NCBI RefSeq assembly: GCF_000003815.2
Contig: NC_049994.1
Span: forward strand, 1,896,643-1,960,642
Reading direction: 5' to 3'
DNA: 64,000 bases
DNA from: Branchiostoma floridae
Lineage: Eukaryota > Chordata > Leptocardii > Amphioxiformes > Branchiostomatidae
Part shown: one piece after another, positions 2,526 to 63,865 of the stretch
Position numbering within the stretch: position 1 is the first letter of the stretch
Layout: every line of letters begins with the position of its first letter
Notes under the pieces: model-generated
Database searches by the model: none
The model's input: the letters and a program-made list of their open reading frames with translations, nothing else
What the model was told of the DNA's origin: nothing
Made by a program: the position numbers and the translations under genes

Positions 2526-2545
2526 CAATATATGAACAACGAAAC

Positions 2546-4430: not shown

Positions 4431-4444
4431 GGGTTCATCTATTT

Positions 4445-5200: not shown

Positions 5201-5214
5201 TTCAGGGTCAGGTG

Positions 5215-6730: not shown

Positions 6731-6779
6731 TTCACACAATACAATACCTTGTCAAATGTCTGGAAAGGTCCCATTGTCC

Positions 6780-8039: not shown

Positions 8040-8107
8040 CCCTTTTGTTCATGCATGTTCGGCACCTTCCTTCACCAGTCCTTAGCACCTTTCCCACGTC
8101 CAGGCAT
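8040..8107 (-). pseudogene. Histone H4-like relic 4 (N-terminal)
   Basis: The minus strand begins ATGCCTGGACGTGGGAAAGG, then GCTAAGGACTGGTGAAGG and AGGTGCCGAACATGCAT, aligning with the H4 start ([19 protein letters not shown]) with small indels. It ends into the same GACAAGGTAT...TATTGTGTGAAAA tail as relics 2 and 3. Confidence 0.6.
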
Positions 8108-8329
8108 GTCTTCCTACGGTGCAATGATCCTCGGTAGAAAAGACGAGACAAAATTAAACTACAAAATTTAAAATAGAAATAGCTGGAAGAATCATGATCT
8201 CATGATGGGTGGCAGGAGGCTGAGTGCGCTTTGATGAAATCTCAATAAATGTTGCTGTTTGTTTCGGTTTAAATTTCGAAAGCAAGTTTTGTTTCTATGG
8301 TATACCAAGCCCAGTACATAGCTGATTCA

Positions 8330-8812
8330 GTTTCTGTGACTGTGTCGACGCCGGGAAAGTGTTTCTAAAGAAGAAAAAATCAACTACTATGATTTCATTC
8401 ACCTGTCTTCCTTTCTGGCCGGTGTCGCTCTCTTGGTTCGGGACCCAAGATAACGACACAGGCAGCTTATGTAATGGTCAAGGAAGTCCCGACAACCAGT
8501 GACCACGACATAAAAAAACAGAAAGAAGAACAGGTAGTGAGTTAACCAGGGAAGACCCTGTTTACTACAAAACAGAACTTACAAACTGACCGAATGCAAT
8601 CCAGACTATCGACACAGTCACAGAAACCTTCAGAAACAAAATCAGCCATACACCCGACCTGTACACCACAGAAAGAGCTAAAGCCCCGAATTCAAAATGA
8701 GCCTCAATTTACAAAGTATCCGAATATAAAACCCTACCAGCATCATCACTCGGCATGTCAACAAAACACACTCAAGCACCTTACACCAACAAAGAGCTTG
8801 CTAAGCTAAGGC
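8330..8812. repeat. Right copy of the duplicated block
   Basis: Partner of 5880-6150 in the same orientation, about 2.45 kb to the right, with extra inserted sequence between the matches. Confidence 0.7.
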
Positions 8813-17058: not shown

Positions 17059-20000
17059 GTAAGTGTCATGGCTTTCATTTCTTCTTATCGTGGATACCGC
17101 TTTCTTTCTTACTACTGATAGGGCCATGTTGATTTGATCATATGGATGGCATCCTTGTTCCGTCCGTTTCTTCCCAAAAGTTTTTGAACATACACTTAGT
17201 AAATCTTACAACTTAGTCAGCTGCATGCATGATGAGCAAATATGTGCTGTGAATTGCAAAAAGATATCTGAAAATGCATGCTTATGTCGTTGAATGCCAA
17301 AGACTCAATTCCAAAGTCAAAGAAGAAAATGTGTGATCACCCGTATTTCTTAAACATTTAGGGCCACTAATTTTCATAATGAAGGCAACTTTTTTTGGGG
17401 GGGGGGGGGCAAATTGTTTTTTATTCGCCCGCTCGCATCATCGCATCGGGTTTGCTTCAGTCCGTTCCGTTAAGGCAAAAACTGGCAAAAGGTGGAATTG
17501 GAATGGATTTTTTGGGGATGTTAGTTTAAACTTGTGTCCATATCGATGAAGGTTATACATCCAGGAAAAAAGATACGCCAGTGACTGACGAAAGACTCCG
17601 GATGGCTGTCTGAAACGCCTGTCCGTTTCCAAAATCATATCCAGTTTCTTGAGTAACTGCTTTTGGGCGTATCTTAGTTTAAACTTTAATATGTATCATT
17701 ATGTGTTTTGTCAAAAGACGGACATCGGTCCGGACGAAGACCTCCTTAAAGTTATCATGGTAAAGAAAAGAAAACTGAGAGTGTGTGTGTGAGTTAGAAT
17801 TATAGATTCTTAAAATGTTTGAATGTCCTTTCCGTTCGTAGACCCCACTTCTGTGACGTGACAGTGACGGTACCTCAGGAAGAGGAGATCACCCCACGGG
17901 AGAACACCACCGCGCCCTGCAGCGACGTCGTGACGCTGATGCTGGAGGTGACGCATTGACGTACTTACTTAGGTTTTAAGTCCGACATTGCACTGTTAAA
18001 CGTCATTCACTAAAAGTCAACAGAAAATACTTCAATATTCTTGTATGAATCACATGTTCACCCTCTGTATCTAACTTTCCAACCAGTATTTCCCCCTCAA
18101 TGTTGTCTTTCAATTTAGTGTTAACTCTGCATCCCCAGACTTGCATCTACTGGTCAGTCCCCAATTCCGTCCCCCGGGGCTTTCATCTATTGGTCATTTC
18201 TAAATCTTGTGTCCTGGTCAAACCCCAATCTCGTCCATGACAAATTATATCCACTGCCACTGGTGACAGTCCCCAATCTCGTCCCGGGTACTTTCATCTA
18301 CTGGTCAGTCCCCATGCAGTCTTGTCCCCCGGACTTACATCTACTGGTCTGTCCTCAATTCCGTACCCCGGCACTTTCATCAATCTCTATTCCGGAAGTG
18401 CTACTAGTACGTCTATTGGTCAGTCCTCGACCTCGCCCCCTGACTAACATCTACTGGTCAGTCCCTTATGTTCTCCCCAGAGACCTGACCACGAGGACTT
18501 CACCCCCGTCCATCGAATGGAATGACCCACTTCCTACCCTAACTCTCCAAACTGCAGAAGTCGCGATCATCGCGTGTTTGCCAATGTGTCTTGATCCTGA
18601 CTTCCGCCGCACTTTTCTCCACTATTAAAACGTGTATTTTACCACTGCACAGGGATGGCAACTGGACCCCGAATCGTCCGATCCAGACTCCTCAATCTGC
18701 GTCTACTACAAGTAAGTAAAATAGTGGGGAATTCTTGTAGTTTCGTTTTGGACACACATAGAGATGATAGACAAAACATTGGCTTGCACTTGCGCCTCCT
18801 GGCGGAATTGGGCTGTTATTATGTAACATTGTACTGAGATAGCACACACTATACAGACACCGGTCACAACCCCCTCCTCCATTCATAACCCCTCTACCTG
18901 CATAGACCTGGTAACCCCATTTCCTGCACACCCCCATACACAACCCCTCCCCCAGACAGACCCCAGTCACAACCCCCTCCTCCAGCCACATCCCCCTTCC
19001 CAAAACAGACCCTGGTCACTACCCCCTCCTCTAGACACAACCCCCTTCCCCATAGAGACCCCCTTCCCCATACAAACCCCAGTCACACACCCCTCCTTCA
19101 GCCACATGCAACCCATTCCCCATACAGACCCCAGTCACACACCCCTCCTCCAGCCACATCCCCCTTCCCCGTACAGACCCCTGTCACAACCCCCTCCTCC
19201 AGCCACAACCCCCTTCCCCGTACAGACCCGTCACAACCCCTTCCCCGTACAGACCCCTGTCACAACCCCCATCTCCAGCCACAACCCCCTTCCCCGTACA
19301 GACCCATCACAACCCCCTCCTCCAGTCACAACCCCTTCCCCGTACAGACCCCAGTCCTCCAGCCACAACCCCCCCTCCAGTCACAACCCCCTCCTCCAGC
19401 CACAACCCCTCCTCCAGCCACAACCCCCCCCACCAGCCACAACCCCCCCTCCAGTCACAACCCCCTCCTCCAGCCACAACCCCTCCTCCAGCCACAACCC
19501 CCTCCTCCAGATAAAAAAGTTTTTAAGACAATTGAGTTCAAAGTCAGTTGACATGATAATGAATTAGTGGTCAGGTTAGTAAAGACATGTTCCTGTTGCA
19601 GACCTGCGGTGACACAGACCATCATGGTGGAGGAGACTCACCAGGGATGCTGTGATGTTAGTTGATATGAGTTAATGAGTTATGTTAATGGGTTAGTGGT
19701 CAGGTTAGTAAAGACATGTTCCTGTTGCAGACCTGCGGTGACACAGACCGTCATGGTGGAGGAGACTCACCAGGGATGCTGTGATGTTAGTTGATATGAG
19801 TTAATGAGTTATGTTAATGGGTTAGTGGTCAGGTTAGTAAAGACATGTTCCTGTTGCAGACCTGCGGTGACACAGACCATCATGGTGGAGGAGACTCACC
19901 AGGGATGCTGTGAGGGTTGGGAGGGCCTAGCCTGCGATCAGCGTGAGTCAACTTACATTATACAGGGCTCGAAATACATTCTAGGACCAACTTGCACTGT

Positions 20001-23000: not shown

Positions 23001-26000
23001 TCCAAAGGTCTGACAGGAAATGGAACATGGCTCAAGCCCAGAGTATCTCCGGCTCAACCTCATATATGCGTTTTATTCATAGTAAGACAGCTCAAACATT
23101 ATTGAAGATGAACCTTAGCAATAAATCCATTTATTCATAGACAAATTTACCAAAATATGTTTCCATACTACAGTAGGCTATTCTGTAGTTAAGTTCAAAA
23201 CAGCCTTAACTTTAGAGTAACATGAAGGTTTTCTTTGATGAAGCATGGCTGCAAAGACTGGTTGTAAACATGTACATGTAATGTGTGTGCCCCCAATTGT
23301 TTTGCACAACTTGAGCAACTGGGAATAAAGACTACATGTTTGTATGTTGTCAAGGTTGAGTAATACAAGATATTTTAGTGCCAGAGTATTGATGGTGAGA
23401 ATGCCACCAGTGTCGTGGGCTAGTTTAAGTTTCATGTCTACTACAGTAACTGTAAAATTTGTATGCTTTTAAGTTTGCGAGGATTTACTTTCGCATTAGC
23501 GAGTGTTTCGGTGGTTTTAAGTTTGCGGTAGTGCCATAGACTGCAGTGTCATACTATAATTATAGAGAAAAATGTTTGCAGTGGTTTTAAATTCGTGGTG
23601 AAGTGGTCCCCGCGAAAACCACGAACATAAAACCACCGCGAACATTTCTGCATTCACAGTAATACTATACGCTAACAGATTTGCCCCCCCCCCCAGATGA
23701 CATCAACAATGCCCTGTCCACGGGGTTTGCAGCTGCAGACAGCCACTCCGTACACAGCTACGCCACCTGCCTCACCTGGGGACGCTTCCACTTCCGCACC
23801 TTCGATGGGCGCCACTTCAGGTACAACTGAGAAAATTTATGCACCTCAGTCTACCTTCATTTATCACACTATTTCTATTTCTTTTTAACTCTTAATCAGT
23901 GGAGCTGATACTATTTCAAGGCTACAGGTGATATGAAAAGGGTCCAGAACAGCATTTCTTTATCTGAAGTCAGAAACATTCTTATCCAAAATAGTAGTTG
24001 TAGTATCCATTATTTGATGCTACTGCCTGGGGTCCCTGATACACATGTGCCTGCGTAACTGTCTTCACACTGCTCTCCTAAGCAGCTCTGTCTTGCAGGT
24101 TCAAAGTAGATAAATAGATGAATAGAAGCATGCTGTTATTAGGACTGCTTGCTTAATGGCCTATGCCCTAACTGCACCCTATTTTTGAAGGAAATTCATG
24201 AAAAATGCCTTTTCCAAAGACTGACACCTGTCTGAACTAAGAACCTCTCTTTTCCCAGCTTCACAGGTGATTGTGCGTACATGCTGGCGATGGACGTTGA
24301 CAACACGTTCTCCGTGACCGTACGCGACGTGGACTGTGACTCAGCAGCCAGCTGCCACAAGGTTCGCTCGGTTTCTTACTCTTCAGAACTGCATCAGGAC
24401 ACTCTGGTGTATTGAACATCATGTAATAATCATAAAGTAATCATACAAATATAAGGCTAGTTCACCTTTATTCGCGGGGTAACCTTTATCTGTTGTATTT
24501 AACACCAGGATATTTTGGGATATCAAGTCGACTGACCATGGTCTCAAACTGCATTATATTGACAAAAAAACAATTTGAAACCACCGTCCATCTACGTGAT
24601 ATCCCTAAATATCCTGTTTTTAGGTACAACGGATATAGGTTACCCCAAGAATAAAGGTTATCTAGCATTACACTATTTATTCATATACAAGCACACTCAG
24701 GTACATTCAATAAATTGATCAGATTGAAAACCTGTGTTGCAAGGACGGGGGCATCGTAAACCTTGGACTTATGAAGTCAACAACTTACCATGGACCATAG
24801 TCCCCTTTTACCTACAGTAAGTCCAATTGTCTGAAAATGGACTTACTCAGGGAGGACTTAAGATGGACTTACTGCCTAAATTGGTATTAAGGACTAATAC
24901 TCTGGATAATAGTCCACCAAAACTAACACCTGACAGTGAGTGTTTTTGAGGTGGACTTACTCCGTGAGTAACTCCCCATCTGACACAAGTAAGCCCACCT
25001 TCAGTCTACATTCATCCTCTTTTAGGTCCAAGGTTTACATGGTTATATGGCACTTATGACCACATTACCAACACAGACCATCATGTGACCTTGCTAAAAT
25101 TTGAGTCATTTCATACATTATCAGGTTCTAGAGATGAAGCTGGGCTCCACGACAGTCCACGCGGCCGGACACAGCATCGTGTTTAACGGAGAACAGATCA
25201 ACCTGGTCGAACCCTTCTCCAGAAACGGTTGGTACAATGTAGCTGCGTCAATGTCTCTTAAATGTGTTTTGTTAGATAGTCTAGGAGATCTGTCAGTGCT
25301 GTGTTTGTGGTAGCACTAAAGTCAGATACTGCAACAGTAATGGAAACATTGGCGCCTTTGCTCAGTTTGAATCCACATAGAGCTGTAGTAGCAACTCGGC
25401 AAGGGTGTTGGAGATGGTCTGAACAGTTGCCTCCACACATCATAATACTGTACCATTGTATAGTTGACAAACATGCTGTGCTTAGACAAGGGGAACAGAC
25501 CAAAAACTTTTACGGTAGTTTCAAGCTAACCACAGAATAGAGTTCACTGTGAGTAGGTCACTGCAAAATCTGCGACGATAAATCACTGCAACCTTCAAAG
25601 TGTTTTTGGTAATACTAAGATCGTCATCATCATTAATCATCCTCTGAGGTGCAGCAAGTTAAGTTTGTCTTCCAGGACAGTCTGTCTTCCATCGCTGTGA
25701 AAAGTTCCAGGCCCTGCAGATCAGTTTCTTCAAAGTTAGCCTTGGGTGACCAACATGTTTTTTTACAGAAAACAGGTGCCCAGAACAAGAGTTTTCCGGC
25801 TGGCTCTCTACTAAGATGTGTAATACTATGTTTCTCCAGGTGTGAGTTTGAAGGTCCTGGGAGACTATGTGTTCCTGGAGGCCAGTCTCGGAGTCTGTGT
25901 GAAATGGGACACAGACACAGCAGACACTGAGTGTGTACATGACTGTTATGATGGTAGTAACTAAGATGTGACTGTTTCTCCAGGTGTGAGTTTGAAGGTC

Positions 26001-29000
26001 CTGGGAGACTATGTGTTCCTGGAGGCCAGTCTCGGAGTCCGTGTGAAATGGGACACAGAGTCCACCGTGTACATGACTGTCATGGCAGAGTACCTGGGCA
26101 AGACCAGGGGTCTGTGTGGGGTCTATAACTACAACCCTGATGGTAAGTTGGATGGCTGAAATCACCAACCCCTTATATAGCCTCTTGACTTTTTAACTGC
26201 AATGTAAAATACAAAGTCATGTATTAGATGCTGTGTAATTCTAAATTCATTATAAGTGTACCTACATGTGCTATATACTATGTATTCTACGCTTTACTTT
26301 ATTTATTTGGCCAGGTTAAAGTACACTCAGTGACATGTGTAACTCCTGCCTTTTTCAGGTAGTCCTTGTTTTCTAAAAATCATGTCATCTAAATGGCACA
26401 CAGAACATATATACGACAACATCATATTAAGTCACAATATAAATAATAAAAATAGCATAGATACACAATTCAAGCATATGTATTTAGAGGAGATTACAAT
26501 ACTGTGGGCTTGCTGGTCTCACAATGTTCAAAAAAACTTATCTGAACTGATTAAAAGACTTAGTACTTTTTGCTTAACGTAAAGTAAGGTGTCCAATATC
26601 CTTACTGTACTTTTCAATGCCTCAGGTTCCACTTATTAAATGTTTATAAAATAGTTATGTCATACAACATTTTGAAAATTGTCAATCCTCATTTTGCAAC
26701 TCTGGTATTGAATGATTGTACCTTTTTCTGGCAGATGACTTCAAAATGATCAACAATGAAATCGCAGTGTATCCTGCCATCTTTGGGAACAGCTGGAAGA
26801 TACCAGAGATTGGAGAGGTAAGGGGGGAACCATTTTATAGTTCACAGGAGGGAAGGAGTTTCATTGCCAGATATGCCCTAGATGTACTTGACATGTTGTA
26901 ATACAAGGGCAATGCTTTAAGTCAATTAAAATGATTATGTACATCTTGTAGTTTTGTCTGGTGTGTCATTGTACAGTACCTGGTATGAAAATGTACTTAA
27001 TGCAAATGCAGGAAGGATGACATTTTACATCAAGGAAAAGAACAGGATATTGTGACGAGTGTTGATGAGCAGCTGTCAACAGGATAACCACTGAGAAAAA
27101 GTCATGTGATGTAGGCTGGTTTGTTTGTTTTCCTTCACATGTTTTATTTACTTGTTTATTTGTTTGTTGTTGTTGTTACAGCACTGCCCAGACAGCGCGG
27201 CCCTCCCCCACACATGTGTTCAGCACAGTGACAGGGAACAGGCTGCCCAGCTGGCCTGTGGTAAACTCATGCAGACACCCTTCGACAGCTGCAACGGTGT
27301 GGTGAGTGGACACTTGTTCGTTTGTTTATGTTACAGATTTAAGACTGAACCATATATCCGTACACAAAATAAAGTGCTTACCAACAAGCTTTCGATCAGT
27401 CCTCTGATCCTTATCAAGTTGAAATGACCTGTACTGGCATACTGGCGCCATGGCAATGTGACATGACAAAATTTGGTTTGACTAAGTACATGTTAGTTAG
27501 TTAAAGTTAAAGTACTTCCCGTGCCTGATGGTGCATAGGATGGCGCCCATCTCCGTTTCAGTAGCCCTTGGGCCACGCAACACAATCACTACAGCAGGGG
27601 GCTAGTCCACTGGTAGTGCTGTGTGTTGAACAACTTCCATACTCTTTCCCGAATGCTGAGTGCTAAGCAGAGAAAGCAGCTGTACTATTTCTAAAGTCTT
27701 TGGTATGACTTGGCTGGGGATCGAACTCATGACCTTCCGCATGCAAGGCGAACACTCTACCCACTAGGCCATTGCACCAGTTACATTGCATTGTACATGT
27801 TACCAAGGATTAATAAAGGTTGACTGATAACGTAAAGATGAATTATTTGTTTGCACCCCTTCAGTTGGACCCCCAGCAGTTTTATGAGGACTGTATGTAC
27901 TCCTACTGTACGTGGGAGAACGAGGATGACCGCGAGGTGGCGCTGTGCTCCGCCCTGACCACCTACTCACGCCAGTGTGCACAGCAAGGCATTGTCTTCA
28001 ACTGGAGAGGACCTGGACTATGCGGTCTGTTTGTTAATATGTAACTCAAAACTCTCTTCTCCGTTGTTTGATTATATTGCTGCTGGAATCCCTGACGCAG
28101 GGGTAGGCAACAGTTGGCTAGTCTTCACACCACGCCCCCATGCGGCTCTGTCCAGTGGGTTGACCGCTGTTAGACCGCACACCTTCATGTCCTTCCTAAC
28201 ACACTTCATCAAGTTTTTCTCAGTCTACTACGACCCCCTGCAAACACAGTCAAAAGAGAGTATGCCTAAAAGCAGTTACTCAAGCAACTGGATATGATTT
28301 GGAAACGGTCAAACATTTCAACTAGCATCCTCTAGTTTTTGTCAGTGACACTGAAGTGATCTGGAAGAACTGATCTTTTATACCCTAACTATGAATGAAG
28401 ACAACTTTAGATGTCCAATAGGAAGACAACTTCAGGCTGAAGACAACTATAAACGTTTCCTATTGGACATCTAGAGTTGTCTTCATTCATAGTTAGGGTA
28501 TAAACGACCAGTTTCTTCCAGATCACTTCTGAATCAGTGTCACTGATGAAAACTAGTGGATGCTAGTTAAAACGTCTGCCAGTGATCATTGCCAAATCAT
28601 ATCCAGTTGCTTGAGTAACTGCCTTTTGGCATATCTTATTACCTGGATGCACAACCTTCATCGCCGTATCTCGAAATAGAGGTTTTGTAGTCACTTGCTG
28701 TTAGTGTGTTTGTATACCGGGTCTCGTTCTTGTCTGTTTTTTTAAAAGAAAGGCAATGCACATTGTATGAGTGCACAAAAGGTGAGTTCTAATGTACAAA
28801 TATGTAAGTCCCATTCCTCTGTTTTGGAATGGACATTTGCTTATTGGGACTGAAGAAAGTTTCACCCAGCCCAGCCAAAGAAATTTTATCTGAACTTCAT
28901 GACATGAAATGGATGAAAAGATACCTTCATAAGCTTGAAATGACACATTTAGCAATGGAAATTAACAAGAGTTCGGAACAAAATTTCAAGCTGGGACAGC

Positions 29001-59000: not shown

Positions 59001-62000
59001 ACTCTAGCAAAAAAGTCTGGCTCTATGTCCAAGATTTTAACTTTGTCCAGTGAAACTGAATGACCAGGTGATTAGACAATATTGTTGCTGATATCATCCC
59101 ACAGAACCAGAATGTGTTGAGAACTCGGAGTGGCTTGAAGCAGACGAGTGCAAGACCTGTCCAGGAACGTGTCTGAACTTGTGGTCCCAGGAGATATCCA
59201 GCTTGGTGGGGCAGGTGGCAGAGTGTCTCCCACAGCCCTGCGAGCCAGGTTTGTTTGTTTATTTGTTTGTTTATTTGTTGTGTCTAAACTGGTGAACCAG
59301 GTTTGTTTGTGTATTTTGTTCGTTCTATCTAAACTACATGTAGTACGATAGGTGAAAGAGTGTCTTCCACAGCCCTGTGAACTAGGTTTGTTTGTTTGTG
59401 TATTTTCGTATCTAGTACGACAGGTGAAAGAGTGTCTTACACAGCCCTGTAAACCGGATGTGTTTGTTTGTGTATTTGTTGTGTATAATCTGGTGTGACA
59501 GGTGATAGAGTGTCTTCCACAGCCCTGTGAACCAGGTTTGTTTGTTGTGTATTAGTTGTGTTTAAACACTATGGATGACACTACGACCCTATCTTGTGAG
59601 TGGAATGACTTTTTAGTACTACTAAACAGTGTAATTCATAACCATTTGATACAAACCTGTACATCTCTTGTGTGTCCATCCAGGTTGCTATTGTAAGGAG
59701 GGTTTTGTTGAGCACAACGGAACCTGCATACGGCAGCAGGAGTGCCCCTGTTTCATCAATGGGGTTGTCTACGACTATGGTGATCCCATATCACTAGGAC
59801 CATGTGAAACTTGGTACATCAAGATCTTCTGCATTCTTTATTTCTTTATTTGGATTCATTACAGACTGAGAGCTGGGGCAAAACAGGTGCAAAATGCACC
59901 TTTGAAGGCTGCCCTCCCGCACATAAAAACACATACATGGCACAACAATCATAGACTATACGATAATAATGACATTATCAGAATATACATTTATAACTAA
60001 CATTAGGCAAATTCATGGTACAATTGGTGAAAATGAAAAAGTGTGCGAAAAACTAGCTCGGTCTTGATGCTAGGCAAGAAGCAACCACAAGAAGTGGTCC
60101 AGGTACAGGGAAGGTTGATACAGTCGATGGTACTAAATCTGTTGTATGTCGCCTTCAGTTCTTATCATTCTGTATCATTATCTAATGCCATATAGAGGGC
60201 ATAATGACCCTTCTCAGGCAGGCAGCATACACATGTAGCTGTAGGTTATATTGCACTGAAAGACCCATCACACATAACCTACAAGTCTAAAATTACACTG
60301 TACCATATACTTATGTACTTGTGACTTACCTGGCTTCTTGTGCTAACATGTTTCTGCATGTAAATTTGTTAAGAAAAAGTGTAACCTATTTTTTCATTAT
60401 CAACTGCCTAATTTTTTGTACTCCATTCTCCAGTTACTGCATCAATGGAACATTGGGCGAATGTGTGGACACCTACCCATGTAATGGTAGGTTTAAAATT
60501 AATACCATTTAAGTCATTCAGGTCCTTACCAGTTTAACATTCCAAGGTCAAGTATACAGTCCTTCATGAGTGTTTAATGAGGGTCTGCATGACACTTTTC
60601 GATATGGTGCAGGCAACGTCTTTGATTTCCTGCATGACGTGCATGACGCCATCTTATCAATGTACATGCGTACAGTAGAGTATAGTACATGCTAATGAGA
60701 CAGCCAAATTTTATCTGAGTAATACGCTGGTGGTTCTTCTGATTTCAGCATTTACCATTGAAGAGGTCCCCCATGCAGAACCTGTTCAATGTTGTAGTAC
60801 ATTACCACAGAATCTGATATGGGACCAAGTCTCCTTGAAATAAATTTTAAGACAGTTCTACAAAACAGTGGCTTTCAAGAATGGACTATAATCAAGTATT
60901 AATAAGTCTTAAGTTTGTATAATTATGTGAACTGAGTTATTATGTTTTATTCTTGTAGTTTTATCCAGAACACAGTAACTGTTGTTTTAACCAGTATGTT
61001 GGTACTGTTTGCAGTGGACTGCGAATGGTCCGAGTGGACGTCATGGGGACCAGTAGTTGGACCATGTGGTACAGAAGTACAGCAGTACTCCTACAGGTAC
61101 AGTCTGAAGTTATACTGTAAACTGGACCATGTGGTACAGAAGTACAGCAGTACTCCTACAGGTACAGTCTGAAGTTAAACTGTAAACTGGACCATGTGGT
61201 ACAGAAGTACAGCAGTACTCCTACAGGTACAGTCTGAAGTTAAACTGTAAACTGGACCATGTGGTACAGAAGTACAGCAGTACTCCTACAGGTACAGTCT
61301 GAAGTTATACTGTAAACTGGACCATGTGGTACAGAAGTACAGCAGTACTCCTACAGGTACAGTCTGAAGTTAAACTGTAAACTGGACCATGTGGTACAGA
61401 AGTACAACAGTACTCCTANNNNNNNNNNNNNNNNNNNNNNNNNNNNNNNNNNNNNNNNNNNNNNNNNNNNNNNNNNNNNNNNNNNNNNNNNNNNNNNNNN
61501 NNNNNNNNNNNNNNNNNNNNNNNNNNNNNNNNNNNNNNNNNNNNCCTACAGTAACTGTTGTTTTAACCAGTATGTTGGTACTGTTTGCAGTGGACTGCGA
61601 ATGGTCCGAGTGGACGTCATGGGGACCAGTAGTTGGACCATGTGGTACAGAAGTACAGCAGTACTCCTACAGGTACAGTCTGAAGTTATACTGTAAACTG
61701 GACCATGTGGTACAGAAGTACAGCAGTACTCCTACAGGTACAGTCTGAAGTTAAACTGTAAACTGGACCATGTGGTACAGAAGTACAGCAGTACTCCTAC
61801 AGGTACAGTCTGAAGTTAAACTGTAAACTGGACCATGTGGTACAGAAGTACAGCAGTACTCCTACAGGTACAGTCTGAAGTTATACTGTAAACTGGACCA
61901 TGTGGTACAGAAGTACAGCAGTACTCCTACAGGTACAGTCTGAAGTTAAACTGTAAACTGGACCATGTGGTACAGAAGTACAGCAGTACTCCTACAGGTA

Positions 62001-63865
62001 CAGTCTGAAGTTAAACTGTAAACTGGACCATGTGGTACAGAAGTACAACAGTACTCCTACAGGTACAGTCTGAAGTTAAACTGTTAACTGGACCATGTGG
62101 TACAGAAGTACAACAGTACTCCTACAGGTACAGTCTGAAGGGCTTTTGAGGCCCTCCACTTCTAAGTCCTTTAACTCTAAAACGACATGCCGTAGGGCCA
62201 CCAAATGTTCAGGACATGATTTCGACATAATATCTGACAAGTATGTGATGTTACGTTGACGTAAGATGACGTAATTATGACGTCATCAATTTGATTACAT
62301 TGGCCAAACCCACGAAAAATGGGTATTCTCAGAAAACTTCAAGTTATGCTGCAAAAATGTAACAACAAGTGCAGATAACAGAATAATAATGTTTATTACG
62401 ACTTGCGTTGTCAATAGCAACATCATTGACGTCAATATGACGTCATAAAATGACGTCATGCACATCTAAGATACGAATTGGGATCCACCATATTATATCC
62501 ACCACCTTGAATTTTTAAAAATACTTTTTTGGCAACAAATAATCACAAAGGGCAATGGAAATAGACTAAATTCATTCATTTAGATGGTTTTTGATGAAAA
62601 AATGCCAGGTAGTTACAAATTTTAAGGGATAATTAGCTTGTTATTCTTGATCTGGCCATTCGGTCCACCATCTTGGATTTGGGGCTGATGACGTCATCAA
62701 ATTAGCATAATTTATGCATATATAATTATGAAAGATATGCTGATTAATATAAGATTTTATTATAAATGTGAAGGTCTGAAGGGTTAAACTGTAAACTCCA
62801 ACACAAAGTTTGGACCGATATACAGAATGACCAACTCCAGTCTTTGTCAAGGAATGAGCAGTCAACTACATCACGTGGGACCGTGTAGCACAGTGGCAGC
62901 ATGTTCGGCCCATGACCAAGAGGTCGCGGGTTTGAATCCGGCTGCCGTGTGACCGATCTTGTGCCCTTGGGAAAGGCACTTTAGACGACTTTCCTCACTT
63001 TACTCAGGTGAAAATGAGTACCTAGCTTTGGCTAGGGCTGTCCCTCGGATAGACGTTAAATGGAGGTCCCGTGTCTGGGCAGAGCCATACCCCAGGCACG
63101 TAAAAGAACCGACCACACGTGCGATGGTGCGGTGTGAGTGGTTCAAAACCTACAGACCCTGGCCGCACCTGGGGCAATTACTGTGGTATTGAGGTCATTA
63201 GGCGCTGTGTACAGGCTGCCATTTCAGACCCTTGTGGCTTAGCCCTGCCTATTGTAAGCTCCTCGCAATTCAGCCCCTGGCTGCAAAGAGAGAGTAGCCG
63301 GCCCATACTATACAATACAATACAATACAATACAATACAATACAATAGAATCTGTGACACATTATGCATACATTGTTCATGTACAGAAAAGACATTAAGT
63401 CGTGTTAAGTTATAAGAGGATAACAGACAGGGGGCGCCAATTGGCTTTCTGAAAATTGGTCATCTAATACTTACAATGTTCTTTCTGTATACATGTAACA
63501 TGACATCACAGAAGCAGCGGATTGTATATTCCTTGACAAATGTGTGTAAAGCAGGCCTTATGATGTGAATATGTCACTACAAGTTCTGGGAATAATACAA
63601 TGTCATGTAAATTATTAAATACAGAGTCTGGGGAGTACTTGTAAGTGAAGGTATAGCAAGGTTCAGCTTCAAGTATTCTTCCAAGCTCTCAGTTTTTATG
63701 TTGACCTCTGAGACCTGTGTTGTATTTATTGTTAATTTTTAAATTACTAATTTTTGATTTTGTTGTTCACCAGAACTCCAGGTTTCCCCCCAGCCCAGGG
63801 TAATGGCACCAACTGTACAGGGTCAGACAGAAGGATGAGACTCACTATGACAGAGGATTGCATAC
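16970..63865 (+). CDS. SSPO: SCO-spondin-like giant secreted glycoprotein, 5' 55 coding exons (partial, continues past right edge)
   Basis: Multi-exon gene reconstructed from GT/AG splice sites. The 55 exons sum to 6,604 coding bases (2,201 codons plus 1 nt) and every junction keeps phase. Approximate residues: signal peptide 1-30; EMI 31-112; EGF-like 113-145; TB-like 8-Cys 146-200; VWD1 ~220-391; C8 392-484; TIL 485-564; VWD2 ~580-745; C8 746-848; TIL 849-932; TIL 934-1028; VWD3 ~1040-1227; C8 1228-1306; TIL 1307-1403; LDLa x11 1404-1917 with three Thr/Pro-rich linkers; TSP1 x2 1918-2034; TIL 2035-2143; TSP1 start 2144-2201. EMI, three VWD-C8-TIL units, an LDLa block, then TSP1 repeats is the known order of SCO-spondin, which in vertebrates is secreted by the subcommissural organ and polymerises into Reissner's fiber; amphioxus makes a comparable fiber from the infundibular organ. 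The function here is inferred from architecture. No F5/8 type C domain was found. Vertebrate homologues are about twice as long, so the TSP1-rich C-terminus is probably off the window. Confidence 0.92.
17573..17677. repeat. Half copy of the fold-back at 28261-28637
   Basis: CAAAATCATATCCAGTTTCT, TGAGTAACTGCTTTTGGGCG and TATCTTA match the right arm of the larger fold-back. Lies in intron 1. Confidence 0.6.
17842..17947 (+). CDS. SSPO: SSPO exon 2: EMI domain, first part
   Basis: Residues 30-65, beginning [20 protein letters not shown] and ending at LMLE. The acceptor is GTAG at 17838-17841 and the donor GTGACG at 17948 (phase 0). The Cys, the acidic stretch and the following PC match the start of an EMI module as in SCO-spondin N-termini. 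Confidence 0.85.
18120..18480. repeat. Imperfect repeats in intron 2
   Basis: Diverged tandem units of CATCTACTGGTCAGTCCCCA then ATCTCGTCCCCCGG; about six or seven recognisable. Confidence 0.7.
18653..18711 (+). CDS. SSPO: SSPO exon 3: EMI domain, middle
   Basis: Residues 66-84, [24 protein letters not shown] acceptor; GTAAGT donor at 18712 (phase 2). The C-V-Y-Y-K motif across the junction is the EMI centre. Confidence 0.85.
18845..19515. repeat. C-rich tandem array in intron 3
   Basis: Units around CCTCCAGCCACAACCCC with longer CCCCGTACAGACCC versions, nearly G-free on the plus strand. It makes a long polypyrimidine-like tract ending about 90 bp before the first exon-4 copy. Confidence 0.9.
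19545..19859 (+). repeat. 129 bp tandem block carrying two truncated copies of exon 4
   Basis: Acceptor plus exon-4 starts at 19602, 19731 and 19860 are each 129 bp apart and differ by about one base in the exon part (ACCATC or ACCGTC). The first two copies switch from exon to the GTTAGTTGATATGAG intron-like sequence after GGATGCTGTGAT, lose the donor and meet TGA, so they are not usable exons. Confidence 0.92.
19860..19942 (+). CDS. SSPO: SSPO exon 4: EMI domain C-terminus (third and only full copy of a tandem block)
   Basis: Residues 85-112, with the EMI end motif [13 protein letters not shown]. The acceptor TTGCAG ends at 19859 and the donor GTGAGT starts at 19943 (phase 1). Two upstream copies of the acceptor and most of this exon (from 19602 and 19731) lack the donor and run into a stop, so this third copy is the one that keeps the frame. 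Confidence 0.88.
20197..20416. mobile_element. MITE-1 copy 1
   Basis: Fold-back of about 215 bp. Left end CTAGTTCACCTTTAT..GGGG; right end GGATAAAGGTGAACTA. Inner arms TATCAAGTTGAC and GTCAACTTGATA. No coding capacity. Confidence 0.85.
20503..20601 (+). CDS. SSPO: SSPO exon 5: EGF-like domain
   Basis: Residues 113-145 with the EGF spacing [14 protein letters not shown], then [13 protein letters not shown]: six cysteines and the Gly-Tyr/Tyr-Gly signature. Phase 1 on both sides, so it is a symmetric exon that could be gained or skipped without shifting frame. From memory, vertebrate SCO-spondin has no EGF here. Confidence 0.85.
21038..21202 (+). CDS. SSPO: SSPO exon 6: TB-like eight-cysteine module
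   Basis: Residues 146-200. The Cys pattern [12 protein letters not shown], then [19 protein letters not shown] and SLCP resembles a TGF-beta-binding-protein (TB) module (C-C doublet, W-G, C..CP). Phase 1/1. A cysteine-rich segment with a CC doublet and WG also precedes VWD1 in vertebrate SCO-spondin as I recall it. Assignment to the TB family is by pattern only. Confidence 0.78.
21203..23440. other. Intron 6, mostly unassigned
   Basis: Largest intron in the first half of the gene. 22800-22920 shares CGTCACTTGCTGTTAG.GTGT with 28680-28715. No extra exon compatible with phase 1 was recognised. Confidence 0.45.
23445..23662. mobile_element. MITE-2 copy 1
   Basis: Ends ACAGTAACTGTAAAATTTG and TTTCTGCATTCACAGTAATA; inner GCGAGGATTTACTTTCGC, GCGGTAGTGCCATAGACTGC, then CCACGAACATAAAACCACCG. 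Fold-back with CG-rich arms, ending about 35 bp before exon 7. Confidence 0.8.
23697..23820 (+). CDS. SSPO: SSPO exon 7: start of VWD domain 1
   Basis: Residues 201-241, ending [17 protein letters not shown], the standard opening of a von Willebrand factor type D domain. The acceptor is a run of C residues plus AG. GTACAA donor (phase 2). A MITE ends about 35 bp upstream of the acceptor. Confidence 0.9.
24259..24361 (+). CDS. SSPO: SSPO exon 8: VWD1
   Basis: Residues 242-276, [19 protein letters not shown] onward to CDSAASCHK. The donor is the weak GTTCGC at 24362 (phase 0), chosen because exon 9 then reads VLEMKLG in frame as expected for VWD. Confidence 0.86.
24457..24669. mobile_element. 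MITE-1 copy 2
   Basis: CTAGTTCACCTTTATTCGCG at the left; GGTTACCCCAAGAATAAAGG and TTATCTAG at the right. In intron 8. Confidence 0.85.
25125..25227 (+). CDS. SSPO: SSPO exon 9: VWD1
   Basis: Residues 277-310, [20 protein letters not shown] and onward to EPFSRN. Atypical donor GTTGGT (phase 1), required by the phase of exon 10. Confidence 0.85.
25840..25963 (+). repeat. Partial duplicate of exon 10 with its acceptor (144 bp period)
   Basis: The acceptor TTTCTCCAG and the first part of exon 10 are repeated at 25840 and 25984, 144 bp apart. The left copy reads [20 protein letters not shown], diverges after KWDTD, and stops at about 25962. It has a Cys where the intact copy has Arg. Confidence 0.9.
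25984..26142 (+). CDS. SSPO: SSPO exon 10: VWD1 with Gly-Leu-Cys-Gly motif (intact copy of a partial duplication)
   Basis: Residues 311-363: [19 protein letters not shown], then [20 protein letters not shown]. The GLCG motif is the VWD hallmark. GTAAGT donor (phase 1). An incomplete second copy of its first half lies at 25840-25963. Confidence 0.9.
26735..26817 (+). CDS. SSPO: SSPO exon 11: end of VWD1
   Basis: Residues 364-391, [20 protein letters not shown] then WKIPEIGE. The F-G-N-S-W motif closes the VWD domain. GTAAGG donor, phase 0. Confidence 0.88.
27182..27301 (+). CDS. SSPO: SSPO exon 12: C8 domain 1, first half
   Basis: Residues 392-431: [12 protein letters not shown], then [20 protein letters not shown]. 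This is the Cys-rich C8 module that follows VWD. GTGAGT donor, phase 0. Confidence 0.88.
27497..27785 (-). mobile_element. tRNA-derived SINE, minus strand
   Basis: On the minus strand TGGCCTAGTGGGTAGAGTGT (box A-like), an Ala-type anticodon loop CTTGCAT closed by TTCGC/GCGGA, and GAGTTCGATCCCC (box B) form a tRNA-like head, followed by about 215 bp of body in intron 12. The T-stem pairs poorly, so it is not a working tRNA. Confidence 0.75.
27865..28024 (+). CDS. SSPO: SSPO exon 13: C8 domain 1, second half
   Basis: Residues 432-484: [19 protein letters not shown], then [18 protein letters not shown] and WRGPGLC. Canonical C8 second half (YEDC..Y.C, Y...C...G). Donor GTCTGT, phase 1. Confidence 0.9.
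28261..28637. mobile_element. Large fold-back element in intron 13
   Basis: The left arm (CAGTTACTCAAGCAACTGGA, ACTGAAGTGATCTGGAAGAA, AACTATGAATGAAGACAAC) is mirrored by the right arm to give two arms of roughly 180 bp around a short centre near 28445. Related half copies at 17573 and 32383. Confidence 0.88.
29214..29344 (+). CDS. SSPO: SSPO exon 14: TIL domain 1
   Basis: Residues 485-528: [19 protein letters not shown], then [13 protein letters not shown]. Trypsin-inhibitor-like Cys-rich fold as found after C8 in VWF, mucins and SCO-spondin. GTACAA donor, phase 0. Confidence 0.88.
29892..30001 (+). CDS. SSPO: SSPO exon 15: TIL domain 1 tail
   Basis: Residues 529-564: [19 protein letters not shown], then the Y.SGE..K..CNTC linker typical between TIL and the next VWD. 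GTAGGT donor, phase 2. Confidence 0.88.
30040..30624 (+). repeat. ~30 bp array derived from the exon 16 acceptor
   Basis: About nine units of CCTCCAGTGTGTGTAACATA then TTTATACCTAA, leading up to the real junction CCCTCCAG|TGTATGTAACAT of exon 16. Interrupted by MITE-1 copy 3. Each unit keeps the CAG and the first exon bases. Confidence 0.85.
30282..30490. mobile_element. MITE-1 copy 3, inserted in the exon-16 array
   Basis: CTAGTTCACCTTTGTTCAC on the left, GGTTACCCTGCGGATAAAG and TTGAACTTA on the right, with array units on both sides. Confidence 0.85.
30625..30763 (+). CDS. SSPO: SSPO exon 16: start of VWD domain 2
   Basis: Residues 565-611: [19 protein letters not shown], then [26 protein letters not shown] is the VWD start signature. 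Its acceptor (CCTCCAG followed by TGTATGTAACAT) closely matches the repeat unit of the array in the upstream intron. Confidence 0.92.
31350..31519 (+). CDS. SSPO: SSPO exon 17: VWD2
   Basis: Residues 612-667: [20 protein letters not shown], then [20 protein letters not shown]. Typical VWD beta-strand pattern. GTAATG donor, phase 2. Confidence 0.9.
31640..32010 (+). pseudogene. LINE-like C-terminal fragment in intron 17
   Basis: In-frame [20 protein letters not shown], then [20 protein letters not shown]. The R-L-x-W-Y-G-H-V-x-R-M and P-R-G-R motifs are those following non-LTR RT domains. Upstream wording (AGAGACTTGGGCAATGTCTA) fits the preceding ETWAMS region. No intact RT. Confidence 0.7.
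32126..32252 (+). CDS. SSPO: SSPO exon 18: VWD2
   Basis: Residues 668-710: [20 protein letters not shown], then [26 protein letters not shown] donor, phase 0. The upstream intron holds a LINE-like fragment. Confidence 0.88.
32383..32540. repeat. Half copy of the intron 13 fold-back
   Basis: GACTGGATATGGTTTCAGAA, CAGTGACACTGAAATGATCT and AACTATGAATGAAGCCAA match the left arm of 28261-28637; the right arm is absent. Confidence 0.7.
33107..33211 (+). CDS. SSPO: SSPO exon 19: end of VWD2
   Basis: Residues 711-745, starting [20 protein letters not shown] (GLCG motif). GTCAGT donor, phase 0. Confidence 0.9.
33743..33880 (+). CDS. SSPO: SSPO exon 20: C8 domain 2, first half
   Basis: Residues 746-791, [18 protein letters not shown] then [22 protein letters not shown] donor, phase 0. 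Confidence 0.86.
34204..34375 (+). CDS. SSPO: SSPO exon 21: C8 domain 2, second half
   Basis: Residues 792-848: [18 protein letters not shown], then [22 protein letters not shown] donor, phase 1. The frame stays open past the donor into a 21 bp intronic repeat to about 34824. Confidence 0.9.
34525..34945. repeat. 21 bp tandem array in intron 21
   Basis: About 20 units of CAGTCACCTATCTGCACACT plus G. Because 21 is a multiple of 3 it is open over long stretches in both strands; the plus frame continuing exon 21 reads repeated SPICTLQ units to about 34824. Confidence 0.94.
35392..35532 (+). CDS. SSPO: SSPO exon 22: TIL domain 2
   Basis: Residues 849-895: [18 protein letters not shown], then [16 protein letters not shown] donor, phase 1. 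Confidence 0.9.
36072..36183 (+). CDS. SSPO: SSPO exon 23: TIL domain 2 tail
   Basis: Residues 896-932: [18 protein letters not shown], ending in the CNHC linker across the junction. GTAAAA donor, phase 2. Confidence 0.88.
36420..36700. repeat. Duplicated and dispersed repeat in intron 23
   Basis: Two tandem versions of AGATGTAAAA.CTAA..TATTG with CAGTGGATCATAAGTTGCAG, about 130-170 bp apart. A further copy (GCAGATAGAACACGTGACTC, CAGTGGATCATAGGCTGCAG) lies at 58905-58990. Confidence 0.65.
36729..36921 (+). CDS. SSPO: SSPO exon 24: extra TIL domain 3
   Basis: Residues 933-997: [18 protein letters not shown], then [18 protein letters not shown] and [13 protein letters not shown] second consecutive TIL between C8-2 and VWD3. 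GTATGT donor, phase 0. Confidence 0.88.
37559..37653 (+). CDS. SSPO: SSPO exon 25: TIL domain 3 tail
   Basis: Residues 998-1028: [20 protein letters not shown], then RDCNTC across the junction. The acceptor is TGCTAG. GTCAGT donor, phase 2. Confidence 0.86.
38427..38618 (+). CDS. SSPO: SSPO exon 26: start of VWD domain 3
   Basis: Residues 1029-1092: [17 protein letters not shown], then [20 protein letters not shown]. The donor GTAATC at 38619 is the first base of a roughly 125 bp tandem array. Phase 2. Confidence 0.92.
38619..38935 (+). repeat. 125-130 bp array starting at the exon 26 donor
   Basis: The splice donor and following intron (GTAATCTTGTACAG, ACTGTATGTTC, CAATTAAAAACCCAGTTT) repeat at 38744 and 38874. 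The second unit keeps GTAATC; the third has GCTAAT and so a dead donor. Confidence 0.85.
39401..39600 (+). CDS. SSPO: SSPO exon 27: VWD3
   Basis: Residues 1093-1159: [20 protein letters not shown], then [23 protein letters not shown] donor, phase 1. Confidence 0.9.
39771..40537. mobile_element. MITE-1 copy 4, split by a nested element
   Basis: Left part TTAGTTCACCTTTACCTGC to about 39933; right part from about 40487 to GATAAAGGTGAACTAGCG. The 549 bp in between is a separate insertion. Confidence 0.88.
39938..40486. mobile_element. Nested TTAA-flanked terminal-inverted-repeat element
   Basis: TTAA at 39934-39937 and 40487-40490 flank inverted ends AGGCGCCCAGAGCAGTTTTT and AAAAACTGCTCTGGGTGCCT. 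TTAA target duplication is the habit of piggyBac-type transposases. The 549 bp interior holds a 77-codon frame of unknown nature and no recognisable transposase. Confidence 0.75.
40873..41075 (+). CDS. SSPO: SSPO exon 28: end of VWD3
   Basis: Residues 1160-1227: [20 protein letters not shown], then [12 protein letters not shown]. Textbook GLCGNFDGD motif. GTAAGA donor, phase 0. Confidence 0.92.
41627..41754 (+). CDS. SSPO: SSPO exon 29: C8 domain 3, first half
   Basis: Residues 1228-1269: [20 protein letters not shown], then [26 protein letters not shown] donor, phase 2. Confidence 0.88.
42392..42501 (+). CDS. SSPO: SSPO exon 30: C8 domain 3, second half
   Basis: Residues 1270-1306: [20 protein letters not shown], then [22 protein letters not shown] donor, phase 1. 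Confidence 0.9.
43036..43185 (+). CDS. SSPO: SSPO exon 31: TIL domain 4
   Basis: Residues 1307-1356: [20 protein letters not shown], then [15 protein letters not shown]. Donor GTCTGA, phase 1. Confidence 0.88.
43395..43549. mobile_element. MITE-2 copy 2
   Basis: TTTAATTTCATGGTAGCGGG and TGTCCACCACGAAAACCGCG, ending TTTCTGAATTTACAGTATG. More diverged than the other copies. Ends about 57 bp before exon 32. Confidence 0.72.
43607..43700 (+). CDS. SSPO: SSPO exon 32: TIL domain 4 tail
   Basis: Residues 1357-1387: [20 protein letters not shown], then HDCLNC across the junction. A MITE ends about 57 bp upstream. GTAACT donor, phase 2. Confidence 0.86.
44078..44124 (+). CDS. SSPO: SSPO exon 33: short link to LDLa block
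   Basis: A 47 bp exon, residues 1388-1403 ([15 protein letters not shown]), closing the third VWD-C8-TIL unit. It is too short to stand out as an open frame and is supported by phase on both sides. GTATGT donor, phase 1. Confidence 0.8.
44535..44648 (+). CDS. SSPO: SSPO exon 34: LDLa repeat 1
   Basis: Residues 1404-1441: [19 protein letters not shown], then [15 protein letters not shown]. Six Cys and the Ca-binding D-x-x-D-C-x-D-x-S-D-E signature. Phase 1/1 symmetric exon. Confidence 0.93.
44890..45105. repeat. C/T-rich imperfect array in intron 34
   Basis: Repeats of CCCTTCCCTCACATCCCC; pyrimidine-rich plus strand ending about 55 bp before exon 35. Confidence 0.8.
45160..45273 (+). CDS. 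SSPO: SSPO exon 35: LDLa repeat 2
   Basis: Residues 1442-1479: [20 protein letters not shown], then [16 protein letters not shown]. Phase 1/1. Confidence 0.93.
45553..45675 (+). CDS. SSPO: SSPO exon 36: LDLa repeat 3
   Basis: Residues 1480-1520: [20 protein letters not shown], then [18 protein letters not shown]. Phase 1/1. Confidence 0.93.
46280..46345 (+). repeat. Short interspersed 3'-tail repeat, copy 2
   Basis: AGTTGTCATACATGTAGACC, then TTTTGTCGTGTCAATAAAGA. Same family as 6666-6730. Lies about 20 bp before exon 37. Confidence 0.7.
46366..46482 (+). CDS. SSPO: SSPO exon 37: LDLa repeat 4
   Basis: Residues 1521-1559: [20 protein letters not shown], then [16 protein letters not shown]. 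Phase 1/1. A dispersed repeat with AATAAA ends about 25 bp before its acceptor. Confidence 0.93.
46547..47050. repeat. Long dispersed repeat in intron 37
   Basis: Shares ordered blocks with 50105-50475: GGAAACTACATT.ATGG, ACAAGACAAACTGCTGTAT, TTTGTTTTATTGTGTGCT, AACCAATAGTTCT and CAGCACCAAGGACAGGGACA. Copy lengths differ by indels. Confidence 0.8.
47628..47683 (+). CDS. SSPO: SSPO exon 38: LDLa repeat 5, first half
   Basis: Residues 1560-1578: [18 protein letters not shown]. This is the only LDLa module here split by an intron (phase 0) in its middle. Confidence 0.87.
48034..48202 (+). CDS. SSPO: SSPO exon 39: LDLa repeat 5 second half plus Thr-rich linker
   Basis: Residues 1579-1634: [17 protein letters not shown] followed by about 38 residues almost entirely T, A, P and V, a likely O-glycosylated mucin-like spacer. 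GTAAGT donor, phase 1. A fold-back element starts within 5 nt of the donor. Confidence 0.88.
48207..48589. mobile_element. Fold-back element at the exon 39 donor
   Basis: The left arm (GAGAATTCTTGTACACAGCC, GTGCTTACGTTTCGGT, GTAGCCGATGTAGGTGG) is mirrored by the right arm (CCACCTACATCGGCTAC, ACCGAAACGTAAGCAC, GTGTACAAGAATTCTC). The left end is only about 5 nt into the intron. Confidence 0.88.
49187..49300 (+). CDS. SSPO: SSPO exon 40: LDLa repeat 6
   Basis: Residues 1635-1672: [19 protein letters not shown], then [15 protein letters not shown]. Donor GTAGGA at 49301, phase 1; the last Cys is completed by exon 41. Confidence 0.88.
49410..49660. repeat. Diverged dispersed-family copy in intron 40
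   Basis: TACTGCACTGCAGTGGAATT, GGTCATGATTTTGAG and GTAGATAA repeat the wording of 10915-11180 and 16730-16815. Confidence 0.5.
49778..49894 (+). CDS. SSPO: SSPO exon 41: LDLa repeat 7
   Basis: Residues 1673-1711: [20 protein letters not shown], then [16 protein letters not shown]. Donor GTATGA, phase 1. Confidence 0.9.
50105..50475. repeat. Long dispersed repeat in intron 41
   Basis: Second copy of the block at 46547-47050, in the same orientation. Confidence 0.8.
50989..51039 (+). CDS. SSPO: SSPO exon 42: Thr/Pro-rich linker
   Basis: A 51 bp exon, residues 1712-1728: [23 protein letters not shown] acceptor, GTGTGT donor. The symmetric phase 1/1 lets it be included or skipped freely, so exact usage needs transcript data. 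Confidence 0.72.
51455..51550. repeat. Dispersed repeat with TTTCGATGTCTGTCAGACA core
   Basis: ACGTTTCGATGTCTGTCAGA, then CACCATCAGCAG. A matching piece (GTTTCGATGTCTGTCAGACA, CCATCATCAG) is in intron 50 at 58540-58572. Likely an end of a fold-back family. Confidence 0.6.
51610..51711 (+). CDS. SSPO: SSPO exon 43: LDLa repeat 8
   Basis: Residues 1729-1762: [20 protein letters not shown], then [11 protein letters not shown]; the terminal Cys is completed by exon 44. GTAAGA donor, phase 1. Confidence 0.88.
52229..52354 (+). CDS. SSPO: SSPO exon 44: LDLa repeat 9
   Basis: Residues 1763-1804: [20 protein letters not shown], then [18 protein letters not shown]. Phase 1/1. Confidence 0.9.
52401..52660. 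mobile_element. Fold-back element in intron 44
   Basis: GCAGGGACATCCAATGGC, CCTGTCTGGATGTACCCTGC and TTTCTCAACTGTCACCCTTA on the left are mirrored by TAAGAGTGACAGTTGAGAAA, GCAGGATACATCCAGACAGG and GGATGTCCTGC on the right. About 260 bp, no coding capacity. Confidence 0.87.
52896..53103. mobile_element. MITE-2 copy 3
   Basis: TACTGTAAATGCATTTAAGT at the left; ATTTCTGCATTTACAGTAG at the right; GCGGTGGTTTTAATTTCGCG and CGCGAAAACCGCGAACATTA inside. Best preserved copy; ends about 20 bp before exon 45. Confidence 0.87.
53125..53232 (+). CDS. SSPO: SSPO exon 45: LDLa repeat 10
   Basis: Residues 1805-1840: [20 protein letters not shown], then [18 protein letters not shown] ends about 20 bp upstream, so the acceptor tract starts at the element border. 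Phase 1/1. Confidence 0.92.
53346..53471 (+). CDS. SSPO: SSPO exon 46: Thr-rich linker
   Basis: Residues 1841-1882, over half Thr ([16 protein letters not shown] and onward), a likely mucin-type O-glycosylated spacer. It shares the T/A/P composition of exons 39 and 42. Phase 1/1. Confidence 0.85.
53984..54088 (+). CDS. SSPO: SSPO exon 47: LDLa repeat 11
   Basis: Residues 1883-1917: [20 protein letters not shown], then [18 protein letters not shown] acceptor, GTATGA donor. Followed by a long minisatellite. Confidence 0.9.
54212..55460. repeat. ~40 bp minisatellite in intron 47
   Basis: About 28 units of GTGTGAATGTCTATCAGCAC then CAAGGAAAGGGACAGTGTTA, becoming irregular after 55130. The core ATCAGCACCAAGGA matches the reverse complement of the 1.2-2.5 kb minisatellite core. 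Confidence 0.94.
55600..55660 (-). repeat. Short interspersed 3'-tail repeat, copy 3
   Basis: Minus-strand copy of the 6666-6730 family: ACACGACAAAAGTACAGTGA, then CTTTCGAAACGTCTATAACA. Confidence 0.6.
55878..56080. mobile_element. MITE-1 copy 5
   Basis: CTAGTTCACCTTTATCTG at the left, GGTTACCGTCGGATAAAGG and TGAACCAGCG at the right. In intron 47. Confidence 0.85.
56554..56721 (+). CDS. SSPO: SSPO exon 48: TSP1 repeat 1
   Basis: Residues 1918-1973: [20 protein letters not shown], then [12 protein letters not shown] and CFVEPC. It has the W-x-x-W-x-x-C-S-x-T-C core of thrombospondin type 1 repeats. Symmetric phase 1/1. Confidence 0.94.
57262..57352 (+). CDS. SSPO: SSPO exon 49: TSP1 repeat 2, first half
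   Basis: Residues 1974-2003: [19 protein letters not shown], then YRVRMCRN. Donor GTCAGT, phase 2. Confidence 0.9.
57381..57589. mobile_element. MITE-1 copy 6
   Basis: AAGTTCACATTCATCTGCAG at the left, GGTTACCCTGCGGATAAAGG and AGAACTAGCG at the right. Begins about 30 bp after the exon 49 donor. Confidence 0.85.
58005..58219. mobile_element. MITE-1 copy 7
   Basis: AAGTTCACCTTTATCCGTGG at the left, GGTTACCACACGGACAAAGG and TGAACTAGCG at the right. Same intron (49) as copy 6 and in the same orientation. Confidence 0.85.
58300..58391 (+). CDS. SSPO: SSPO exon 50: TSP1 repeat 2, second half
   Basis: Residues 2004-2034: [20 protein letters not shown], then [16 protein letters not shown] donor, phase 1. 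The intron before it holds two MITE copies. Confidence 0.88.
59105..59248 (+). CDS. SSPO: SSPO exon 51: TIL domain 5
   Basis: Residues 2035-2082: [20 protein letters not shown], then [11 protein letters not shown]. Unusual donor GTTTGT, phase 1. Three decayed copies of its 3' end follow in the intron. Confidence 0.86.
59249..59560 (+). repeat. Irregular array derived from the exon 51 3' end and donor
   Basis: Three copies of GAGTGTCTTCCACAGCCCTG with flanking GGTGAAA and donor-like GGTTTGTTTG occur at about 59358, 59430 and 59518 (original at 59221). Copies read [22 protein letters not shown] and [11 protein letters not shown]. The middle copy has lost the GT. Confidence 0.88.
59684..59813 (+). 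CDS. SSPO: SSPO exon 52: TIL domain 5 tail
   Basis: Residues 2083-2125: [20 protein letters not shown], then [12 protein letters not shown] and CETC across the junction. GTACAT donor, phase 2. Confidence 0.88.
60434..60486 (+). CDS. SSPO: SSPO exon 53: short TIL/VWC-like link
   Basis: A 53 bp exon, residues 2126-2143: [17 protein letters not shown]. Phases fit on both sides. GTAGGT donor. Confidence 0.8.
61015..61096 (+). CDS. SSPO: SSPO exon 54: TSP1 repeat 3, first half (left copy)
   Basis: Residues 2144-2170: [20 protein letters not shown], then VQQYSY. Acceptor phase 1, donor GTACAG phase 2. A second copy, identical as far as compared, lies at 61591-61672 across an N gap. Two copies in a row would break the frame, so only one can be used. 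Confidence 0.85.
61097..61418 (+). repeat. 65 bp array from the exon 54 3' end, left side of gap
   Basis: Five units of intron start GTACAGTCTGAAGTTA.ACTG plus exon end TGGACCATGTGGTACAGAAG and TACAGCAGTACTCCTACAG, each keeping the GTACAG donor. Enters the N gap at 61419. Confidence 0.95.
61419..61544. other. Assembly gap (126 N)
   Basis: A run of N between two copies of the same exon and array. True size unknown. Confidence 0.99.
61591..61672 (+). CDS. SSPO: SSPO exon 54, second copy right of the N gap
   Basis: Matches 61015-61096 with the same acceptor and donor, and is followed by the same 65 bp array in the same order of variants. Either it is the allelic or misassembled twin of exon 54, or a recent duplication giving a mutually exclusive alternative. 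Confidence 0.55.
61673..62140 (+). repeat. 65 bp array from the exon 54 3' end, right side of gap
   Basis: Seven units; the TTATACTG/TTAAACTG variant order of the first five equals that of the left array. Ends at GGGCTTTTGAGG. Confidence 0.95.
62150..62860. repeat. Intron sequence with five TGACGTCA palindromes
   Basis: Perfect TGACGTCA octamers at 62278, 62427, 62438, 62451 and 62689 in AT-rich DNA. It also contains CCACCATCTTGGATTTGGGG, typical of a dispersed repeat, so the CRE-like sites may belong to a transposon rather than a SSPO enhancer. Confidence 0.5.
62872..63351 (+). mobile_element. tRNA-derived SINE with (ATACA)n tail
   Basis: Head with TGTAGCACAGTGGCAGC (box A-like) and GCGGGTTTGAATCCGGC (box B), then a body including CCCTTGGGAAAGGCACTTTA and TTTCCTCACTTTACTCAGG, ending in ATACAATACAATACA at 63308-63348. 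Classic tRNA-head SINE layout. Confidence 0.85.
63774..63865 (+). CDS. SSPO: SSPO exon 55: TSP1 repeat 3, second half
   Basis: Residues 2171-2201: [20 protein letters not shown], then MTEDCI. CACCAG acceptor (phase 2), GTAAGG donor (phase 1). The gene continues beyond the window. Confidence 0.88.

Follow-up and report, generated by a model that had tools for sequence, protein, structure and literature searches.

Border-spanning tandem arrays in the SCO-spondin-like gene of Branchiostoma floridae: five probable additions to the lancelet mirages

How does a single gene come to hold several tandem arrays built from its own exon borders, and what do these arrays do to it? The question is raised by a stretch of 64,000 nucleotides of the Branchiostoma floridae genome (NCBI RefSeq assembly GCF_000003815.2, contig NC_049994.1, positions 1,896,643 to 1,960,642, forward strand), which is referred to throughout as the window. 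A first-pass annotation had proposed that at least six exon borders of the gene SSPO were copied, together with adjoining intron, into arrays next to the parent exon. The arrays are very probably mirages, that is, chance duplications across a border which have grown as minisatellites, are tolerated through an intact copy at one edge, and contain decoy splice sites that are ignored.

The host gene was modelled with a splice and codon model trained on the window itself. The resulting plus-strand model has exons of 121 bp on average and introns with a median of 586 bp. Read by eye, the full domain order comprises an EMI-like motif, rows of VWD/C8/TIL, a row of LDLRA, a Thr-rich linker, and TSP1/TIL. 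Pfam searches covering 897 residues of the model in three stretches identify VWD (1.5e-39, in two stretches), C8, TIL, four Ldl_recept_a repeats (6.6e-47), and TSP_1 (1.1e-11). They return no EMI domain in these three stretches, and the EMI-like motif of exon 4 is a by-eye reading. The VWD/C8/TIL, LDLRA, and TSP1/TIL architecture is presumably that of SCO-spondin, and the gene name given at first pass is therefore likely right.

The 52-exon list omits a weak first exon (10321/10325-10370) and the decoy exons picked by the retrained model at exon 4. Exon 4 as listed comes from the first model pass, as does the end of the exon at 42392; the end of the exon at 34204 comes from the retrained pass. 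The exons at 60434 and 61015 are taken from a lower-penalty retrained pass, and an exon at 63774 and a longer end for the exon at 59684 are left unused. One predicted exon was rejected, since the sequence at 34522-34939 is an intronic 21-bp minisatellite of 20 copies with one open frame; it was first modelled as an exon and was masked before retraining.

Five tandem arrays span an exon border of this gene, at the acceptors of exons 4, 10, and 16 and at the donors of exons 51 and 54 (Table 1). All five were recovered by local self-comparison of the window and by Tandem Repeats Finder (TRF), except that of exon 10, which was found by self-comparison only. The units of all five contain a splice site and exon sequence. 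The intact exon sits at the expected edge in every case, being the last copy at the three acceptors and the first copy at the two donors. As repeats, the arrays are far beyond chance, with BLAST E values of at most 2e-15 for the exon-10, exon-16, exon-51, and exon-54 clusters, and a TRF score of 694 for the exon-4 array. Differences between copies amount to about 2% at exon 54, 3% at exon 4, and up to about 12-30% at exons 51 and 16, which suggests that the arrays were probably born at different times.

Table 1. Positions in the window of the gene model, the arrays, and associated features
Feature	Position	Strand	Description
SCO-spondin-like gene	17842..61096	+	52 exons modelled, incomplete at either end; self-trained splice/codon model
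Exon-4 acceptor array	19553..19939	+	unit of 129 bp; real border in the final copy (exon 19860-19942); acceptor decoys 19602, 19731
Exon-10 acceptor duplication	25810..26084	+	single decoy copy (acceptor 25840), then real border (25984)
Exon-16 acceptor array	30053..30636	+	~30-bp unit; 10 copies with AG ahead of real 30625
Palindromic MITE-like element	30256..30495		splits exon-16 array; self-complementarity and BLAST
Further MITE-like copies	20197-20408; 24459-24666; 39769-39941; 55875-56079; 57381-57598; 58003-58218		
Intronic 119-120-bp array	38634..38992	+	next to exon-26 donor (exon ends at 38618); not classed as border-spanning
Exon-51 donor array	59204..59564	+	real exon end 59248; copies end 59300 (short), 59385, 59457 (GT lost), 59535
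Exon-54 donor array, left contig end	61058..61418	+	5.6 copies, gap cuts array
Assembly gap	61419..61544		126 N, probable unmerged contig overlap on both flanks
Exon-54 donor array, right contig	61634..62140	+	65-bp unit, 7.8 copies, 7 decoy donors

The first-pass descriptions of the three acceptor arrays are confirmed. The exon-4 array, described as 129 bp in three copies, is found as 129 bp x 2.8, and its first and second copies match at 125/129 bases. The exon-10 array indeed has two copies, at a spacing of 144-150 bp (given earlier as 144 bp); 86 of 87 bases are the same in the core, and identity is 85% over 141. The exon-16 array consists of the real border and up to 12 upstream copies of a unit of about 30 bp, against some nine estimated before. 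The exonic part of its unit is only about 12 bases. Two copies lack AG; one is at 30594, and the other, a weak copy at 30035, falls just beyond the array. A C-rich compound minisatellite (18851-19510), whose periods include 18-19 and 49 bp, lies just ahead of the exon-4 array.

A palindromic element interrupts the exon-16 array. It belongs to an intronic MITE-like family of about 210 bp, which is represented in the window by six more copies and a fragment. One transposon as the source of the arrays was considered and rejected, as the array units look unrelated to one another and the palindromic element found breaks an array. The differing unit sizes and divergences likewise bear out the earlier statement that no single transposon family accounts for them.

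The exon-51 array, expected at 72-137 bp in four copies, has the parent and four partial or fuller copies. At exon 54, six or more copies of 65 bp had been noted, and 7.8 are present on the right contig. Here, units 1-3 recur unchanged as units 4-6, a pattern expected from an exchange of several units at once. The segment 60972-61418 repeats as 61548-61994, starting three bases past the end of the gap, with 446/447 bases the same, and two separate exon-54 arrays were therefore rejected. The doubling is most simply explained by a contig overlap left unmerged around the gap, so that exon 54 is printed twice, and exon 54 and its array are probably single. Such contig-merging trouble is to be expected from the heterozygosity of 3.2-4.2% given for lancelets in the accessible part of PMC12500494. 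The left version of the array seems one unit shorter than the right, but the gap truncates it; the difference could be allelic or due to collapse. The appearance of the exon-54 block on both sides of the gap is also what speaks for the arrays being mainly assembly artefacts. This is extremely unlikely, since the gap at exon 54 is the sole run of N in the window, and copies have diverged in the remaining four arrays.

The sixth array named at first pass, at the donor of exon 26 (given as 125-130 bp in three copies), does not hold up as a copied border. Its 119-120-bp units adjoin the donor, and the array starts there, but the two further copies have no recognisable exonic stretch. When 104 borders are ranked by local-repeat score, the exon-26 border is also not one of the 16 highest listed. 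The array was thus rejected as border-spanning, and of the "at least six" copied borders, five stand and that of exon 26 falls away.

The RE1/NRSE (REST) consensus, which is taken here to be TYAGMRCCNNRGMSAG, has 26 exact matches in the window, where 0.02 would be expected; 24 of them fall in a minisatellite that lies upstream of the gene and has a 43-bp unit (1193-2540, minus strand), and copies within such an array are not independent. The other two are intronic, at 47016 and 50440 on the plus strand, and sit in related stretches that are 74% alike over about 320 bp. A 40-bp intronic array at 54171-55458 (plus strand) carries a near variant of the same consensus. The matches are putative REST sites. 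A canonical site is given as TTCAGCACCACGGACAGCGCC in the part of PMC3529185 that is accessible.

Arrays of this kind have already been described and named in lancelets. The accessible text of PMC3087553 reports "mirage" minisatellites in Adh3 and in the globins BflGb6 and BflGb9, and that of PMC3902484 adds PGBD5 and TnC. In these two sources, mirage units measure 10-160 bp, both 5' and 3' boundaries are hit, and copy number varies between haplotypes. Mirages are said to leave regular splicing undisturbed and are proposed as a source of new intron positions (PMC3087553, accessible text). Similarly, the SCO-spondin arrays span 5' or 3' exon-intron borders, vary in unit length, and retain many decoy AG or GT. 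Five of the six arrays named have a unit with an exon-intron border and both exonic and intronic sequence, the exception being exon 26, and minisatellite-size units (about 30-144 bp) occur at either boundary, three at acceptors and two at donors. In contrast to the published mirages, five are found here in one gene, with units of 30-144 bp. The present arrays are very probably additional mirages, and five in one gene is unusual. Among the papers listed in literature searches, no title or abstract opening names arrays in a lancelet SCO-spondin gene, and the accessible parts of PMC8261243, PMC3145563, and PMC11025195 add nothing on these arrays.

Whether borders are preferred birthplaces was assessed on 12 arrays counted in the gene. 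These are clusters of the self-BLAST, with 18851-19913 split and 36414-36624 joined with its neighbour from the self-comparison. The upstream clusters 1188-2545, 4406-5313, 5918-8800, and 13724-14256 and the spread cluster 55873-58219 are left out. Short TRF arrays, such as 20453-20485 and, within exons, 48134-48193 and 53366-53398, are not counted, apart from three weak ones included in one of the five founder-segment settings below. Seven of the 12 are wholly intronic and five span a border. Random placement of the footprints gives more contacts than observed, with means of 7.5 by circular shift and 7.6 by independent placement, and 96-98% of random placements reach at least five. Local repeats (score at least 28) cover 5/103 borders, compared with 234/1731 intron positions and 5/159 exon-interior positions; the border at 61015, a contig-overlap copy, is dropped from this count, which becomes 6/104 if it is kept.

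A second null points the other way. When the founding segment is drawn at random and viable placements only are kept, 1.8 border-spanning arrays are expected against the five of 12 observed (nominal P 0.018), and five settings give P values of 0.020, 0.010, 0.048, 0.056, and 0.021. With units of at least 60 bp, 4/7 arrays span a border (P 0.039), and with exon 26 taken as touching, 6/12 do so against 2.0 expected (P 0.006). This excess, which is post hoc, is a lead and not a result, because the window was selected for these arrays and the unit sizes were chosen by the authors after the arrays had been seen. Border overlap beyond chance is not established, and the earlier suggestion of junctions as preferred seeds is not borne out by the footprint contacts or the local-repeat counts. 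True hotspots, at which border sequence or a transcription-linked structure seeds tandem duplication, are accordingly an unlikely explanation: the founder-segment excess favours them, but the footprints touch borders less often than random ones and repeats are rarer at borders than at intron positions. It is equally doubtful that lancelet exon-intron borders are preferred birthplaces of arrays beyond the effect of exon density, with decoy sites building up continually in the gene.

The decoy splice sites reported next to the real ones are present. AG or GT is kept in 23/26 copies (2, 1, 12, 4, and 7 copies at exons 4, 10, 16, 51, and the right contig of exon 54, respectively), so the decoys have escaped purging. 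The motif is kept in all copies at exons 4, 10, and 54, in 10/12 at exon 16, and in 3/4 at exon 51. The search patterns first used for the decoys of exons 16 and 54 themselves included AG or GT; exon 16 was recounted without that condition, and at exon 54 all eight units printed on the right contig carry the splice site. Approximate splice matrices, which serve only to rank sites, put the decoys of exons 4 and 54 level with the real site and the exon-10 decoy close to it (3.1 vs 3.4). At exon 51, two of the four copies score the same as the real site, and none of the 10 decoys scored at exon 16 reaches it. At exons 4 and 54, site strength alone therefore cannot tell the real copy from its decoys. 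The choice is likely made by pairing across the intact exon.

The arrays had also been suggested to feed exon gain, which is not clearly seen. Extension of the exon to the decoy meets a stop in 22/24 tested cases. The two exceptions are the first exon-54 decoy, where the frame is shifted, and the nearest exon-16 decoy acceptor (30574), which would lengthen the exon through 30574-30625 by 51 bases, or 17 residues, in an open frame. Similarity between donor and acceptor flanks was scored for 51 introns; in mismatched pairs, used as background, the 99% point is 12 and the maximum is 20. Two introns, at 14 (the best) and 13, exceed the former, against an expectation of about half an intron. Once aligned, the best-scoring one proves T-rich and the other is a 21-base match over a pyrimidine tract, and neither was accepted as an intron birth. 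Thus, no clear case of a new intron with both ends copied from one sequence is present among the 51, and none lies above the background maximum.

The idea that the arrays feed exon or intron gain has a precedent in the model put forward for lancelet globins (PMC3087553) and, in the accessible part of a review, in tandem genomic duplication as a general path to new introns (PMC3443670). As in the intron gain by duplicated AGGT-bearing exon segments outlined there, tandem duplication creates extra splice sites here, and the exon-54 unit, with AG directly followed by GT, could in principle serve as donor and acceptor. The in-frame exon-16 decoy and the two introns above the 99% point also speak for it. 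In contrast to that route, the present units span existing borders instead of lying inside an exon. With stops at nearly all decoys tested and no intron beyond the background maximum, a role in exon or intron gain is very unlikely for this gene.

The arrays are thus best read as mirages, which may have formed as follows. Short tandem duplications would by chance have spanned an exon-intron border and then expanded as minisatellites through unequal exchange or slippage. They would be tolerated because one edge copy retains the intact exon, the last in acceptor arrays and the first in donor arrays. The splicing machinery, most likely pairing sites across that exon, would ignore decoys without a partner.

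The question of border preference now comes down to a straightforward count across the genome against a stated null. For the proposed but unproven path by which mirages would become new introns, the SCO-spondin arrays are further cases. Five mirages in one gene, probably of different ages, offer a concentrated natural test of how near-perfect decoys beside the real sites are ignored in splicing.
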